Shown here one piece after another: positions 1 through 54,384 of a DNA stretch of 64,000 nt. Below the pieces are notes generated by a model. The model saw only the letters and a program-made list of their open reading frames with translations. It ran no database searches and was not told the DNA's origin. How positions within the stretch are numbered: the first letter of the stretch is position 1; each line of letters begins with the position of its first letter. Both the position numbers and the translations under genes were made by a program. This DNA is from Gammaproteobacteria bacterium (lineage in GTDB: Bacteria; Pseudomonadota; Gammaproteobacteria; JASBUN01): NCBI GenBank assembly GCA_030147845.1, contig JASBUN010000035.1, positions 1 to 64,000 on the forward strand, given 5' to 3'.

Positions 1-155
1 CCGGCATGACCAATCAGTGGTTAGAGAAACAGGGGCTCGTCTCGGTGAGAGATCGTTGGATCGCGTTTCACTATGCTTGACGAACCGCCCGGTGCGGACC
101 CGCATGCCGGGTGGTGTGGGGACTGGGGGTTAGAGACCCCCCCCGGTTACCCGAT
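1..155 (+). mobile_element. Group II intron, 3' end (domains V and VI), truncated by window start
   Basis: Directly after the maturase stop codon comes a strong hairpin at about 83-114 with the layout of group II intron domain V. A second C/G-rich stem follows (about 117-147), corresponding to domain VI, and the element appears to end at the CCGAT around 151-155. The order maturase tail, domain V, domain VI is the standard 3' end of a bacterial retrointron. The 5' part lies outside the window. The inferred 3' end is 7 bases beyond the stop codon of the leftward DUF4326 gene, so the intron sits right at the cassette border. The domain assignment is by eye from base pairing and family knowledge. 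Confidence 0.75.
3..80 (+). CDS. ltrA: Group II intron reverse transcriptase/maturase, C-terminal tail (partial)
   Basis: The reading frame entering the window at base 3 encodes a 25-residue tail with the pattern TNQWLEKQGLVSVRD followed by RWIAFHYA and a TGA stop at 78-80. This is the usual C-terminus of LtrA-type intron-encoded proteins, which reverse-transcribe and help splice the intron RNA. The frame is open to the window edge and the expected intron domain V follows at once, which supports the call. Nothing can be said about whether the missing part is intact. Confidence 0.75.
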   Translation, partial: GMTNQWLEKQGLVSVRDRWIAFHYA

Positions 156-162
156 TAGCCGA

Positions 163-756
163 TTATTTGTTATCATCTAGCGTATTGAGGTATTCCACTA
201 ATATATCACCGTGACATGCTGCAGGCTTACAATGACAACCAAGAGTTTTACCCTTTAACTCCAGAACATCTTCTTTAGTAAACTTCAAAAATCCCCTTTC
301 AAAATCATATTTGTACTTTTGGATGACCTTTTCACGACTACCATCGAACCCAATAGCGTATGGATTTCCCCATTTAGACCCTCTTCCAATATACACATCA
401 AATTTTTCGCCTTTGTCAATATTTACTACCTTTGTTGGTTCAGCATCGATAATTCGCGATTTTACGCCTGCTAGTTTTGTGTGCTCGATAAGGTCCGAAT
501 AGGATTTTCCGTCATTAAATATGATAGCGTGCGTGATGCCTTCGATGTGATTCACATCAACATGACTTGGCGTATCTATAAGTCGCATATCTGATGAGAA
601 ATATCTAGAGATAAATTGGTTATCATCCGCAATAAAGGCGAGATGGAACGCGGAAAGGCCCGACAATATATTTGATACCTTTTCCTCAAACTTTCGGTAG
701 TTGGAAAAACCTTTAGGATATGCGACTAGAACAGTTGGCGCTTGATGAATGCTCAT
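163..756 (-). CDS. SLOG-like domain fused to DUF4326
   Basis: 197 residues. The C-terminal half (about 105-197) is a DUF4326 domain: YIGRGSKWGNPY near 122, then LGCHCKPAACHGD and VEYLN at the end, with Cys/His residues that could bind metal or act in catalysis. The N-terminal half has the layout of a Rossmann-like SLOG domain (DUF2493 style): a short strand with YPKGFSNY, an IADDN segment, and HAIIFNDGKSYSDL before an IID strand. SLOG domains bind nucleotide-derived ligands in predicted conflict systems; the exact function of DUF4326 is unknown to me. The start ATG overlaps the stop of the DUF488 gene by four bases (ATGA), so the two are translationally coupled. The gene is AT-rich compared with the rest of the window, which suggests transfer. 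Confidence 0.75.
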   Translation of the reverse strand: MSIHQAPTVLVAYPKGFSNYRKFEEKVSNILSGLSAFHLAFIADDNQFISRYFSSDMRLIDTPSHVDVNHIEGITHAIIFNDGKSYSDLIEHTKLAGVKSRIIDAEPTKVVNIDKGEKFDVYIGRGSKWGNPYAIGFDGSREKVIQKYKYDFERGFLKFTKEDVLELKGKTLGCHCKPAACHGDILVEYLNTLDDNK

Positions 757-1193
757 ATCAGATGTACCACTTCTATATTAGAACCCCAATACTGATTTAG
801 GTATTCGACAACTAGACGACGATGACAATGGTGCGGCTTTTGCTCACTGCATAGCAGGCACCCTCTATCAAGCAGCGGTTTGTCTATTGAACGCTCAATA
901 TTTCGCTGCGAGATCAAATTAAGGAATTTATCCTCATATGCCTCCCAAGTAATAATCTTTTTCTTATATGCATCTAAAATATCTTTTGTCGGAGCCAACT
1001 CCTTTAAATGAATATAATCAGCATCACATAAAGCACGTAAAAAGAACTTCAAGTCATCTCTCTTGGCAAAACCTGATAATTGAGAGATGTTATTCAAGCG
1101 AACATCTATAACACGAGCAATATCATTGCTTTTTAATAAATCAAAAAAGCGTTCCGCAGATTTCTGAGTAAAACCTACAGTATATGTTTCCAT
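753..1193 (-). CDS. DUF488 family protein
   Basis: 146 residues. The start, METYTVGFTQKSAERFFDLL, is typical of DUF488 proteins (YTIGH/F...), as are VIDVRLN near 29-35 and the C-terminal CLLCSEQKPHHCHRRLV motif. DUF488 members are uncharacterised; several occur in predicted nucleotide or defence contexts. It is the middle gene of a tight three-gene unit, 6 bases after the Dual-OB gene and overlapping the DUF4326 gene by 4 bases. Its C-terminal Cys-Lys-Pro-Cys-His-VEYLN pattern closely parallels that of its DUF4326 partner, so the two domains may be related or act on the same substrate (inference). AT-rich like its neighbours. Confidence 0.8.
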   Translation of the reverse strand: METYTVGFTQKSAERFFDLLKSNDIARVIDVRLNNISQLSGFAKRDDLKFFLRALCDADYIHLKELAPTKDILDAYKKKIITWEAYEDKFLNLISQRNIERSIDKPLLDRGCLLCSEQKPHHCHRRLVVEYLNQYWGSNIEVVHLI

Positions 1194-1199
1194 TGGAGG

Positions 1200-1907
1200 T
1201 TATTCATACCTTCTAGCGGTTTCAAAATAATCAGGAAAGCTATATATCCCATTTACCTGCATCCAATACCCAGCTCTTCCATTTGGTGCTTCATAGAAAC
1301 GACTCAACCCTATGCGCACATACACTTCATCCTGAGAATGAATAAGGCTATTCAAATCCATATAATTACCAGCTTCATTGTAATGATTTTCTGCGTAGCT
1401 GTGCAGACCAAGGTCTGTAACTGACAGAAAGCTATACTCCCTTCCAGAGGCATCAGTTATATGCGCTTTGATTTTGGTTTCGTTATATTGATCCTGAACA
1501 ATCCTAATCCCATTTGGCTCCGCCCTAATAGTTATCAATGATCTTTTTGGCGCCGATTCACGAGGTATGTGCTTGTGGCGATCTTCGAGCTCTACCGCAA
1601 ATCCTTCTTCAATTGTTTGATACGCAGAGCCAGAAAGTAAATTACGAAACTCCTCTGACTCACATTGGCCGTTGTACGTAAGGTTGCTGTAATTCATATC
1701 TTCGACATGAGGGGGATCTACATGCTGGGGCCTCGTGAATTCGCCTGCGAGAATAGCTCCTGGAAGCATATTAAGCTCTTTGCATCTATTTGCATTTAGA
1801 TAGGGCATAGGACGAATACATTGGCCGGTATCGGTGTCAATGCCAGCCGTACATAATATTTCTCTATTGGAGAATCTCGTTAGGTCCGTGATTATTATCC
1901 TGCTCAT
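1200..1907 (-). CDS. Dual OB-domain-like protein
   Basis: About 235 residues, first gene of the cassette. The N-terminus MSRIIITDLTRF, then CTAGIDTDTGQCIRPMPY and GAILAGEF, resembles proteins annotated as dual OB-containing domain. Those are predicted to be two beta-barrel folds that bind nucleic acid or a nucleotide. The C-terminal half has VYVRIGLSRFY and a WMQVNGIY strand. No catalytic motif is apparent. An ATG at 1922 is also in frame. I prefer the one at 1907 because an AGG sits 8 bases before it and the family usually starts at this point. Genes downstream are DUF488 and SLOG-DUF4326. The family name is from memory and less certain than the ORF itself. Confidence 0.65.
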   Translation of the reverse strand: MSRIIITDLTRFSNREILCTAGIDTDTGQCIRPMPYLNANRCKELNMLPGAILAGEFTRPQHVDPPHVEDMNYSNLTYNGQCESEEFRNLLSGSAYQTIEEGFAVELEDRHKHIPRESAPKRSLITIRAEPNGIRIVQDQYNETKIKAHITDASGREYSFLSVTDLGLHSYAENHYNEAGNYMDLNSLIHSQDEVYVRIGLSRFYEAPNGRAGYWMQVNGIYSFPDYFETARRYE

Positions 1908-1942
1908 ATGCTGTACCTGCATTTATCGTCTAACAGTAACCA

Positions 1943-1981
1943 GACGGAAACTGTCCGTGTTTAATCACGGACGTTGTCCGT
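1943..1981. promoter_or_regulatory. Palindromic operator-like site upstream of the AT-rich cassette
   Basis: A perfect inverted repeat GTCCGTG (1953-1959), a 6-base AT-rich spacer, and CACGGAC (1966-1972) lies 46 bases upstream of the preferred start of the Dual-OB gene. Further half-sites flank it: ACGGA at 1944-1948 and GTCCGT at 1976-1981. Four alternating half-sites in 40 bases are what a dimeric repressor site looks like. No regulator gene is encoded within the visible cassette, so the binding protein is unknown. Confidence 0.5.
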
Positions 1982-2555
1982 ATATTGCGCGCGGCATAAA
2001 CGGCAATACTCACACCGGCGAATCGCGAAAAGGCTAAACCAACAAGGTTGGCGCGCGCGTGAGCGGACGGCGTAGCGAAAAACATATTGTTGATATCGAG
2101 CCATAAGCGGCGCGATTGCGCACGCGCGCTCGTGGCGCATGTGTGTTAATGATGTTCGTGCCGCGTGGGCAGGGTGGTTGGTTCACGGCGGTGGCGTTTG
2201 GATCGCCAGTGTGCGGCAGTAGGCACGCTACCGCCCTGCAAAGCACCGAACTTCCGTGTTTCGCATGGTGGGTCCCTAATGCGATCTCGGTCCATAGTGG
2301 CAAAAAACCAGATGAATTAGAAGGGCTATGGGCGGCGGATATTTGGCGCGGCTGAAGCGCGAGCGGAGCAACCGGGGGGTGGGGTGCGAGAGGCGTTTCG
2401 GGCTACCCGTGGACGAAAAAGCCCGCTCGGGCCGGTCGCCGATGCTGCGGTTTGAGCCGTTGGGGCCTATAAAGATGGATTTTTGAAGTGCAGGGGGGCA
2501 GGTGGCAGGCGCCTTCGAAGGCGGGAAATCGAACGCTCGGTGGTTTGGGCGTTAT
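1982..2555. other. Gene-free region between the cassette and the REP cluster
   Basis: No convincing gene. Short open frames on both strands here have no recognisable motif and overlap each other. The base composition changes from AT-rich to GC-rich at about 1990-2040, marking the right border of the presumed island. An isolated GTAGGCAC at 2219-2226 resembles the head of the REP elements further right. Confidence 0.5.
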
Positions 2556-6276: not shown

Positions 6277-6387
6277 TGGGTGTACCCGCTGTATGCGCCC
6301 GCCGTATCTGGCTGAAATTAAAAGAAATATTAATAACTATATGATTTTGTTGGTTAAAATTTAAACGAATTTACCCATCGAGACGGC

Positions 6388-6416
6388 TTGACAGTGCGCC
6401 AAGGTCTGCCTAATCT
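6388..6416 (+). promoter_or_regulatory. Sigma70-type promoter of nrdJa
   Basis: TTGACA (6388-6393), a 17-base spacer and TAATCT (6411-6416) form a near-consensus promoter. The expected start of transcription is around 6423, immediately before the downstream NrdR box. The 5' leader would be about 120 bases. Confidence 0.65.
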
Positions 6417-6426
6417 TGACGCCCAT

Positions 6427-6442
6427 ACACAATATCTTGTGT
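6427..6442. promoter_or_regulatory. NrdR box at the nrdJa transcription start
   Basis: ACACAATATCTTGTGT matches the NrdR consensus ACACWATATATWGTGT at 15 of 16 positions and sits just downstream of the predicted nrdJa -10 element. A repressor bound here would block initiation, which fits deoxynucleotide feedback on a ribonucleotide reductase gene. Confidence 0.75.
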
Positions 6443-6543
6443 ATTCCCGTTTTCGATATCCCTGCGGCACCGGATGGTGTCCGACACAAGGCGCATCGAC
6501 AGCTTAGAGCCTAATAACTACAGCAAAGGGGATCCGTCGCACG

Positions 6544-9500
6544 ATGAAATCTGCGCACCTGAAAGCCGTCTCCGGACGCACCGCTGAAATACCGTATCAA
6601 TCCGCATCGCTGGATATCTGGGATAAGAAATACCGATTAAAAACCAAAGACGGCGTCGCCATCGACGCCGAGTTGGACGATACCTACCGCCGCATCGCCG
6701 CGGCGCTGGCCGAAGTCGAAGAGCCGGGCGAGAAGCGCGAATACTGGTTCGAGCAATTCTTGTGGGCGCTACGCCACGGCGCCATCCCGGCCGGGCGCAT
6801 TACCTCCAATGCCGGCGCCTGGGAACACAAACCGGCTACCTCGACCATCAATTGCACCGTCTCCGGCATCATCGAAGACTCCATGGACGATATCCTTGAG
6901 AAGGTGCATGAGGCCGGCCTGACGCTGAAGGCCGGTTGCGGCATCGGCTACGAGTTCTCGACCCTGCGCCCGCGCGGCGGCTACGTTTCCGGCGCCGGCG
7001 CTTATACCTCCGGGCCGCTGTCGTTCATGGATATCTACGACAAGATGTGCTTTACCGTGTCGTCGGCCGGCGGCCGGCGCGGCGCGCAGATGGCGACCTT
7101 CGATATCGGTCATCCGGATGTCACCGATTTTATTCGTGCCAAGCGCGAGGACGGCCGCTTGCGGCAGTTCAACTTATCGCTGCTGATCACGCAGGAATTC
7201 ATGCAGGCGGTGCAGGACGACAGCGACTGGCAACTGGCGTTTCCGATCAAGGCGAAAGAAGTCGAGGCCGGCGAGATCGACCTGCAGGATCCGCAGCAGG
7301 TGGTGTGGCGTGATTGGCCGTACAAGGCCGACTACGCCGTCGGCGAGGACGGGCGCGTGGCCTGCCGGATCTATCGCACGGTGCGCGCGCGGCGCCTGTG
7401 GGACATGATCATGGCGTCGACCTACGACTTCGCCGAACCGGGCTTCATTCTCATCGACAAGGTCAATGAGATGAACAACAACTGGTTTTGCGAGAATATC
7501 CGCGCCACCAATCCTTGTGTAACGGCAGATACCTGGGTGCATACCGGCCGTGGTCCGCGCCAGGTACGAGAGCTGGTCGGCACGCAATTCGCGGCGCGTG
7601 TAGACGGCGTCGATCACGCCAGCGGTGCAGAAGGCTTCTTTCGGACGGCGACCAAACCGGTTATCCGTTTATGCACCGCGGAGGGTTACAGTTTGCGCCT
7701 GACGCAGGATCATCGCGTTCGCCGCGTCACCCGGTTCAGCCGCTACGCCACCGATACCGAATGGTGTGCGGCGGGGGAGCTCGAGCCCGGCGATCGTGTG
7801 CTGTTGAATGACCACCGCACCAATAGCGCATGGGCGGGCGACCATGGCGGCGACGAAGGTTATCTGGTCGGTTTGCTGGTGGGCGACGGTACGCTGAACA
7901 AGGACGCCGCGGTGTTGTCGGTATGGCAACCGGCGTTAGCGGTCAATGACCGCCAAGCGGCGGTCGCTGCCGGCGTGCGAGGCATTATGGATCATGCGCA
8001 ACGCGCGACGAAAAGCCTGTCGCACCGTAGCGATTTCCAAGGCTGGCACGAGATCGAGGGCCGGGGTGAATACCGTCTCAAGTCCGCAGCATTACGCGAC
8101 ATGGCGTTTGCGCTCGGTATGCGGCCCGGTGATAAAGCGATTACAGCCCAGCTCGAGCGTTGCTCCAGCGAGTTCTATCGCGGTTTTCTGCGCGGCTTGT
8201 TCGATGCCGACGGCTCGGTGCAAGGTTCGCAGGCCAAGGGTGTGAGCGTGCGACTGTCACAGTCCGATTTGGCTCGCCTGGAAGCGGTACAACGCATGTT
8301 GTTGCGTCTCGGCATGGCTTCGGCGCTCTATCAGAACCGCCGCGCCGCCGGCGTCAGACAGCTCCCGGACGGTAAGGGTGGCTACGCTGAATACGCTACA
8401 CGGTCGCAACACGAACTGGTTATCAGTGGTCAGAACCTGAGCCGCTTCCGCGATCTCGTTGGCTTTTCGGATAGCACTAAGGCCGCGCGTCTGCGTCAGC
8501 TACTGAATACCTACCAGCGTCGGCTCAATCGGGAGCGCTTCACTGCACGGGTGACGGCCATCACGCCGGAGGGCATCGAAGACGTGTTTGACGTACAAGT
8601 GCCGGGCGTCAATGCCTTCGATGCCAACGGTTTGTATGCACACAACTGTGGCGAACAACCGCTGCCGCCGTACGGCTCGTGTCTGCTCGGCTCGGTCAAT
8701 CTGACCAAGTTCGTGCGTGAACCGTTCGGCGACAAAGCCAATTTTGATTGGGACGAGTTCGCCAAGGCGGTGGGAATTTTCACCCGCATGCTCGACAACG
8801 TGGTCGAGATCAACGGCCTGCCGTTGCAGGGTCAGCGTGACGAAATTTTGCGCAAGCGCCGCCATGGCATGGGCTTTCTGGGTTTGGGTTCGACTCTGAC
8901 CATGTTACGTATGAAATACGGGTCGCCCGAGTCGGTCGAATTTACCGAACGTGTGTCGCGTGAGTTGGCGCTGGCCGGCTGGCGCGAAGCGCTGGAGTTG
9001 GCGCGTGAAAAAGGTGCGGCACCGATCATGGAAGAAGAATTCGAGGTCGATGCGGAAATGTTGCGCCGGCGTCCGGAAATGACGCAGGACGGTTACCGTA
9101 TCGGCGACCGCGTCAAAGGCAAGGTGCTGCACGCGCGCTACAGCCGCTATATGCAGCGTATAGCGGAGGCTGATCCGGGCTTGGTCAGCGAATTGGCCGA
9201 GGTGGGTGCGCGCTTTACGCATCACAGTTCGATCGCGCCGACCGGCACTATTTCGCTGTCATTGGCCAATAACGCCAGCAACGGTATCGAGCCGAGTTTC
9301 GCGCACCACTATTTCCGCAACGTGATTCGCTCGGGGCGCAAGACCAAGGAAAAGGTCGATGTCTATTCCTTCGAGTTGCTGGCCTATCGGGAATTGATCA
9401 ACGAAAAGGCGTTGCCGGAGAGCGCCAACCCGGAGGAGCAGTTGCCTGATTATTTTATTACCGCGGAAGACATCACGCCGCGCGAACATGTGGATATCCA

Positions 9501-9828
9501 GGCGGCGGCGCAGATTTGGATCGACTCGTCGATCTCGAAGACGGCCAACGTGCCGACTGATTATCCGTACGAGGATTTTAAGGATATTTATCGGTACGCT
9601 TACCAGAAGGGCTTGAAAGGTTGCACCACATTCCGCTTTAATCCCGAGGCGTTTCAGGGCGTGCTGGTCAAGGAGAAAGATTTGGCCAACACTACCTACC
9701 GCTTCACGCTCGACGACGGCTCGGTAGCCGAATTCAAGGGTAATGAGGAGATCGAATACGACGGTGAAATTCATAGCGCCGCCAACCTCTACGACGCCTT
9801 GAAAGAAGGTTATTACGGCAAGTTCTAG
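6544..9828 (+). CDS. nrdJa: Adenosylcobalamin-dependent ribonucleotide reductase, large part (NrdJa), with intein
   Basis: 1094 residues as translated, about 717 after removal of a 377-residue intein. It reduces ribonucleotides to deoxyribonucleotides by a B12-generated thiyl radical. Visible elements are the redox Cys104 in STINCTVSG, the radical-site motif N-P-C-G-E split by the intein (Cys702 is the +1 residue), Cys713 in GSCLLGSVNL, and the phosphate loop IAPTGTISL. The C-terminal Cys-rich tail that single-chain NrdJ proteins carry is absent and is supplied by the next gene, as in the split NrdJa/NrdJb of Pseudomonas aeruginosa. The start ATG has AAGGGGAT about 10 bases upstream. A strong promoter and NrdR boxes precede it. 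With this enzyme the cell can make DNA precursors with or without oxygen. Confidence 0.95.
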   Translation: MKSAHLKAVSGRTAEIPYQSASLDIWDKKYRLKTKDGVAIDAELDDTYRRIAAALAEVEEPGEKREYWFEQFLWALRHGAIPAGRITSNAGAWEHKPATSTINCTVSGIIEDSMDDILEKVHEAGLTLKAGCGIGYEFSTLRPRGGYVSGAGAYTSGPLSFMDIYDKMCFTVSSAGGRRGAQMATFDIGHPDVTDFIRAKREDGRLRQFNLSLLITQEFMQAVQDDSDWQLAFPIKAKEVEAGEIDLQDPQQVVWRDWPYKADYAVGEDGRVACRIYRTVRARRLWDMIMASTYDFAEPGFILIDKVNEMNNNWFCENIRATNPCVTADTWVHTGRGPRQVRELVGTQFAARVDGVDHASGAEGFFRTATKPVIRLCTAEGYSLRLTQDHRVRRVTRFSRYATDTEWCAAGELEPGDRVLLNDHRTNSAWAGDHGGDEGYLVGLLVGDGTLNKDAAVLSVWQPALAVNDRQAAVAAGVRGIMDHAQRATKSLSHRSDFQGWHEIEGRGEYRLKSAALRDMAFALGMRPGDKAITAQLERCSSEFYRGFLRGLFDADGSVQGSQAKGVSVRLSQSDLARLEAVQRMLLRLGMASALYQNRRAAGVRQLPDGKGGYAEYATRSQHELVISGQNLSRFRDLVGFSDSTKAARLRQLLNTYQRRLNRERFTARVTAITPEGIEDVFDVQVPGVNAFDANGLYAHNCGEQPLPPYGSCLLGSVNLTKFVREPFGDKANFDWDEFAKAVGIFTRMLDNVVEINGLPLQGQRDEILRKRRHGMGFLGLGSTLTMLRMKYGSPESVEFTERVSRELALAGWREALELAREKGAAPIMEEEFEVDAEMLRRRPEMTQDGYRIGDRVKGKVLHARYSRYMQRIAEADPGLVSELAEVGARFTHHSSIAPTGTISLSLANNASNGIEPSFAHHYFRNVIRSGRKTKEKVDVYSFELLAYRELINEKALPESANPEEQLPDYFITAEDITPREHVDIQAAAQIWIDSSISKTANVPTDYPYEDFKDIYRYAYQKGLKGCTTFRFNPEAFQGVLVKEKDLANTTYRFTLDDGSVAEFKGNEEIEYDGEIHSAANLYDALKEGYYGKF
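7516..8646 (+). other. Intein with LAGLIDADG homing endonuclease, inside nrdJa
   Basis: Residues 325-701 of the NrdJa precursor. The first residue is Cys325 (CVTADTWVHTGRG, block A). Block B is LRLTQDHRV with His390. Two dodecapeptide endonuclease motifs follow, YLVGLLVGDGTL from 440 and FLRGLFDADGSV from 547. Block F is VFDVQVPG...NAFDANGLYAHN, ending in His700-Asn701 before Cys702. All the residues needed for protein splicing are present. Both endonuclease motifs keep the acidic residue, so homing activity may be intact. Removal rejoins the catalytic NPCGEQPL sequence. Confidence 0.95.
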
Positions 9829-54288: not shown

Positions 54289-54305
54289 AAGTCTCTCTCC
54301 GTATC

Positions 54306-54384
54306 GAGACGAGCGCGGTTGAGCAAATTGACAATGCGACCCTGAGCCTCGCGGACTAATGCCGCTGCAGCGCTCCTCAAGGTG
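54306..54384 (-). ncRNA. SAH riboswitch in the ahcY leader
   Basis: Read on the minus strand the leader contains TTGAGGAGCGCTGCAGCGG, then GAGGCTCAGG, then CAACCGCGCTCGTCTCG. These are the three conserved blocks of the S-adenosylhomocysteine riboswitch in order and at normal spacing (GAGGAGCGCUGC, GGCUC and the pseudoknot partner GCGCUC). It ends 17 bases before the ahcY start codon, so it could expose the ribosome site when SAH accumulates. Strength of match was judged by eye. The remaining bases to metK (54385-54568) hold only an AT-rich, presumably promoter-bearing stretch. Confidence 0.85.

Follow-up and report, generated by a model that had tools for sequence, protein, structure and literature searches.

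The closest described counterpart of the locus reported here is PDC-M45, a candidate system listed in PADLOC in which a DuOB protein (component A) is encoded in a compact three-gene layout with two DUF488 proteins, one of 202 aa (component B) and one of 145 aa (component C, PDC-M45C; PDLC04658). We analyzed a 64,000-nucleotide stretch (hereafter, the window) of a gammaproteobacterial genome (contig JASBUN010000035.1 of assembly GCA_030147845.1), which begins with a similarly compact unit encoding a DuOB protein, a DUF488 protein, and a fusion of mSLOG and DUF4326 domains. The three genes form one conserved operon (hereafter, the triad), the unit is almost certainly an integron gene cassette, and the chances are about even that it encodes a DNA-targeting, probably anti-phage, module.

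The DUF488 protein of the window matched the PDC-M45C model (1.4e-68). Given that PDC-M45 consists of DuOB, DUF488, and DUF488, the unit is a variant, or sister form, of this listed candidate. Component B is absent from the window, where mSLOG-DUF4326 is found instead, at the opposite end of the operon. The DuOB proteins of the triads are of two types, TDLTRF and LANS, in otherwise equal triads; the LANS-type proteins of sister triads matched the PDC-M45A model, whereas the TDLTRF-type protein of the window did not. At an Allochromatium locus, DuOB, DUF488 (PDC-M45B), and DUF488 (PDC-M45C) genes stand beside type III CRISPR genes. A preliminary description of the window, made from its sequence, had named the unit as the window's best candidate for an undescribed system. 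"Undescribed" was too strong, as this DUF488 is already in PADLOC together with a DuOB partner, and the mSLOG, DuOB, DUF488-N3, and DUF4326 families have been placed in conflict contexts by Pfam and published analyses.

The unit spans approximately positions 156 to 1934 of the window, with the following features:

1..155, plus strand: 3'-terminal part of a group II intron (domains V/VI and the end of the reverse transcriptase gene), oriented against the cassette genes
156..160, minus strand: remnant GGCTA of an attC R'' box (GTCTAAC in an intact relative), split by the intron
163..756, minus strand: mSLOG-DUF4326 fusion, 197 aa, predicted nucleotide-binding domain and second cysteine enzyme
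753..1193, minus strand: DUF488 protein, 146 aa, predicted cysteine enzyme
1200..1922, minus strand: DuOB protein, 240 aa, TDLTRF type, predicted tandem-OB DNA-binding subunit
1928..1934, minus strand: core recombination site GTTAGAC (integron R' type), 5' boundary of the cassette
1929..1987, no strand assigned: palindromic attI-like boundary element

The open reading frames (DuOB probably starts at 1907) are separated by a 6-base gap and then joined by a 4-base overlap, and the GC content over 163-1922 is 39.8%, compared with 59.5% in the remaining window. The preliminary description was thus right about the tight packing, the A/T-rich composition, and the group II intron on one border. On the other border it had placed a sharp composition change together with repetitive extragenic palindromic (REP)-like repeats. 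The palindromic repeat GCACGGATGAATCCGTGCCTAC does occur at approximately 2540-2830; with dozens of matches scattered across the source genome, it lies outside the cassette.

Conservation and distribution of the operon

An alignment of seven mSLOG-DUF4326 proteins was used as a profile against one genome per species (~85,000 species) and returned 80 loci. DuOB and DUF488 genes adjoined mSLOG-DUF4326 in 62 of the 66 full-length, de-duplicated loci, and with very few exceptions the order was DuOB, DUF488, mSLOG-DUF4326 on one strand, so the grouping of the three genes proposed from the window alone holds across genomes. Hosts span several proteobacterial classes and are mostly Gammaproteobacteria, together with Zetaproteobacteria and with Campylobacterota and Thermodesulfobacteriota. 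The distribution is sporadic, with matches in 7 of 399 genomes from the phylum. Triads were also detected on plasmids of Citrobacter, Klebsiella, Leclercia, Moraxella, and Acinetobacter; one plasmid triad (L023) had no close copy among 5,426 E. coli genomes. Solo occurrences include DUF488 at L172 and L173 and mSLOG-DUF4326 at L099. For a gene 3' of the Moraxella triad, the reading as a further intron was dropped because the gene encodes a replication-initiator-like protein.

Defense genes around the triads

PADLOC models were run on 335 genes within 4 kb of ~60 triad loci, in three sets, and on 126 control genes from arbitrary places in complete genomes of the same class. The three sets matched 168, 181, and 284 PADLOC families, compared with 6, mostly generic, in the control; these are counts of families and not of genes (one Gabija gene matches many models), and the control is small while the difference is very large. 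The neighbors include Gabija (three members), CBASS, RmrA/RmrT, BstA, Lamassu, Juk, Druantia, Thoeris, and restriction-modification systems of types I, II, and IV. The preliminary description had suggested looking for conserved company with defense genes, and the triads do sit in a defense-island setting. A defense role of the triad is quite likely.

Boundaries of the integron cassette

The nearest relative of the unit, L031, is on a contig of another gammaproteobacterial metagenome-assembled genome and is 94% identical to the window solely from GTTAGAC before DuOB to TCGTCTAA after the last stop codon. Each end of this stretch coincides with the end of a canonical attC site, and a simple attC scan of the 14.6-kb L031 locus detected these two sites and no others (a stricter scan, which the simple one superseded, gave zero sites even in true arrays). 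The 3' attC of L031 is intact (GTCTAAC...GTTATAC) and begins 3 bases past the stop, whereas the window keeps only the R'' remnant before the intron. At the 5' boundary, GTTAGAC (1934-1928) agrees with the R' core GTTRRRY and is the same core as the R' of a canonical attC in L031; homology to L031 and to contig C36 of the source genome breaks exactly there. An attC begins 2-12 bases past the stop at six loci (L031, L036, L059, L083, L086, and L092), three of which have attC on both sides, compared with a background of 0.14 attC-like sites per kb. The mobile unit suggested by the preliminary description can thus be specified as an integron gene cassette.

The intron agrees with this assignment. 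It was detected by Rfam RF00029 at 83-155 on the plus strand (43.1 bits, cut-off 40), and over its 3' 116 bases it shares 78% identity with a group II intron from the Citrobacter plasmid pLNU-11; the 5' part is absent because the window starts at a contig end (contig C20, in a genome of 68 contigs). Group IIC-attC introns insert at the attC R'' box in the orientation opposite to the cassette genes (PMC7923331). The window intron fits this rule, as it ends at 155, is followed by T-AGCC (the R'' remnant) at the start of E2, and lies on the plus strand while the genes are on the minus strand. On pLNU-11 (L019), the triad is flanked by an attC site on either side, and an oppositely oriented group II intron splits each of the two. 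The DUF488 genes of pLNU-11 and of a Pseudidiomarina locus (L083), both in integron cassettes, are near-identical, a sign of recent transfer.

The 59 bases ahead of GTTAGAC recur with 88% identity on contig C36 (5523-5581), before a different gene (PD-T7-4-like, 2.9e-9) that precedes its own attC. A conserved element that swaps its partner exactly at the core site is attI-like, and from this arrangement of the two sequences we infer a putative attI. No copy was found in 35 other genomes. The second site is part of a region (C36, 4700-5581) in which the attI-like element is followed by the PD-T7-4-like (DUF4145-type) cassette and a canonical attC; the next cassette has seemingly been hit by an IS3-type transposase.

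No integron integrase was found in the window flank next to the cassette, and nothing in the source genome matched above the TIGR02249 cut-off. A frameshifted, truncated, and degraded fragment similar to the N-terminal part of integron integrases is present near a contig end (C58, 560-861). An integrase and attI in cis are features of a complete integron and not of a cassette, and integrase-less arrays (CALIN) are a known form. We read the source genome as holding a decayed, dispersed integron with defense-like first cassettes. The window cassette resembles integron cassettes with phage-defense genes in being bounded at attC cores, in its first place beside an attI-like site, and in its interruption by an opposite group II intron; it differs in having no nearby integrase gene, only the degraded fragment on C58.

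Predicted folds and active sites of the three proteins

The DuOB protein matched Pfam PF22557 (2.5e-11, above cut-off). Its AlphaFold2 model has a predicted local distance difference test (pLDDT) score of 93.3, and the best solved matches are nucleic-acid-binding proteins with tandem oligonucleotide/oligosaccharide-binding (OB) folds, namely RPA70, HIN-200 DNA sensors, LEF-3, Cdc13, and Teb1. The likeness to RPA70 and HIN-200 is in the predicted tandem-OB fold, whereas sequence identity is only ~11% and DuOB belongs to its own bacterial family.

DUF488 matched PF04343 (8e-25, above cut-off) and has invariant residues C112, C115, E117, C123, H124, and R125 across 53 relatives. The fusion protein matched PF22565 (mSLOG, 3.9e-26) and PF14216 (DUF4326, 4.7e-22), both above cut-off, and residues C174, C176, C181, and H182 of its DUF4326 domain are invariant in 59 relatives. 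With these loops conserved, DUF488 and DUF4326 are both likely to be still active enzymes. The SLOG fold named in the preliminary description is supported by a confident AlphaFold2 model of the fusion (pLDDT 93.4), which matches viral SLOG (DUF2493, YspA-type) and DUF4326 proteins, one over the whole length. PADLOC (E ≤ 1 for DuOB) and NCBIfam had no match for the DuOB and mSLOG-DUF4326 proteins of the window, and a sequence search of the PDB found no relative of any of the three proteins.

Assigned by their Pfam families, the two enzymes are candidate members of the RapZ-C/DUF488/DUF4326 clade, and they have a similar C-terminal strand-loop-helix motif (C-P-x-x-C-H ... eyLN). The published prediction for DUF4326 favors ADP-ribose phosphates as substrate (PMC9503650), whereas DNA ends or adducts are favored here for DUF488. 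The two could both hold, one for each enzyme. Phage records contain DUF4326 homologs as well (1,991 records, e.g., hits H31-H50); some lie beside ribonucleotide reductase or thymidylate synthase genes, and a few are of full mSLOG-DUF4326 length.

DUF488 in formaldehyde-resistance modules

The DUF488 subfamily of the window also occurs, at 53-60% identity and without DuOB or mSLOG-DUF4326 partners, in plasmid formaldehyde-resistance modules. UvrA-DUF488-FrmR modules were found on 82 plasmids of enteric bacteria, and DUF488-UvrB modules with a formaldehyde-type repressor or dehydrogenase in Acinetobacter, Aeromonas, and Comamonas (4 plasmids with DUF488-UvrB-repressor). The plasmid loci L025, L026, L028, and L153-L156 are examples of solo DUF488 in modules with UvrA or UvrB. 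Among the papers searched, none described this subfamily next to DUF4326 or as part of formaldehyde modules.

In a tree of 55 DUF488 proteins, the Acinetobacter modules grouped with Acinetobacter triads (support 100/99) and the remaining modules with a PDC-M45 protein (95/86), and these well-supported branches force at least two separate recruitments of DUF488 into formaldehyde modules. The PDC-M45 C proteins do not form one clade in this tree (3 changes). Both kinds of module pair DUF488 with nucleotide excision repair of damaged DNA, and the simplest guess is therefore that the substrate of DUF488 is DNA lesions or ends.

A possible mechanism and its alternatives

We infer anti-phage activity for the triad and nucleotide sensing by mSLOG-DUF4326. 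During phage infection, the tandem-OB protein DuOB would bind exposed DNA (single-stranded DNA or ends) and recruit the two related enzymes. The Cys-His-Arg loop of DUF488 may modify or remove groups at DNA ends or adducts, while mSLOG-DUF4326 would bind a nucleotide, perhaps an NAD or ADP-ribose derivative, and perform or gate a second reaction of a related kind on a ribose phosphate, with the outcome that phage DNA is incapacitated. That DNA is the target is an evenly balanced proposition, and the division of labor among the three proteins is tentative. Somewhat more speculative still is the possibility that the triad represents a distinct integron-borne antiviral class. Its tandem-OB protein would be a DNA sensor, in analogy to RPA or HIN-200, and would guide two cysteine enzymes of rhodanese/phosphatase type to the ends or adducts of phage DNA, which they would chemically modify or de-protect; bacteria would have re-used one of the two repeatedly, together with UvrA or UvrB, for the repair of formaldehyde-damaged DNA.

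Several observations weigh against this DNA-targeting model. The TM-scores of the DuOB fold matches are modest (about 0.37, in a range of about 0.3-0.4) and therefore support a type of fold and not a specific relationship, and a Foldseek search of the PDB with mSLOG-DUF4326 gave nothing below 1e-3. Comparison of profiles by hhalign links DUF488 and DUF4326 weakly (probability 28-36%, E 4e-4 to 6e-4) and over a short motif only. The control genomes in the neighborhood comparison were few, and a defense neighborhood is company, not function. Finally, selection on the unit is not constant in L031, the closest copy, where a loss of ~535 bases (within 6379-7594, between 9-base matching ends) has removed the end of DuOB and the greater part of DUF488.

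Among the alternatives, a nucleotide-signal system survives best, though we consider it rather unlikely. Infection would raise an NAD or ADP-ribose derivative, mSLOG would sense or make the signal, DUF4326 and DUF488 would process its ribose phosphates, and DuOB would be the sensor or effector, the target being a small molecule and not DNA. Published work can be cited in support (PMC7824862), but the dedicated tandem-OB subunit and the repeated pairing of DUF488 with UvrA and UvrB point to DNA, and the triad is without any known signal synthase or effector.

It is less probable again that the cassette serves DNA repair under chemical stress, clearing the host's own DNA of aldehyde-type adducts or crosslinks, with no anti-phage role. 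The same DUF488 family is indeed present with UvrA or UvrB in formaldehyde-resistance modules on many plasmids. However, those modules hold solo DUF488 only, with neither of its triad partners found there, and the triads accompany defense genes and are sporadic among genomes.

A selfish addiction or passenger cassette, kept by integron or plasmid mobility without benefit to the host, is very improbable: triads are carried in integrons and plasmids, and toxin-antitoxin cassettes are common in integrons, but the triad has no known toxin or antitoxin domain, and the solo DUF488 and mSLOG-DUF4326 genes, together with the survival of L031 after its DUF488 deletion, argue against an obligate pair.

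Other features of the window

A ribonucleotide reductase gene at 6544-9828 seems to be split by an in-frame intein, with C...HN junctions around ATNPCVTADTW and LYAHNCGEQ, and an S-adenosylhomocysteine (SAH) riboswitch (Rfam RF01057, 51.5 bits) lies at 54304-54384 on the minus strand.

Implications for DUF488 and for integron-borne defense

Three families of unknown function become one testable unit with defined borders, a defense-island setting, and a substrate hint. The independent occurrence of DUF488 beside UvrA and UvrB in formaldehyde-resistance plasmids is the first concrete lead found here to its substrate. PDC-M45 has a sister form that the PADLOC models would miss, and a multi-gene example is added to integrons as carriers of defense genes. 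The presence of DUF488 in both settings suggests that parts traffic between antiviral defense and DNA-damage tolerance.
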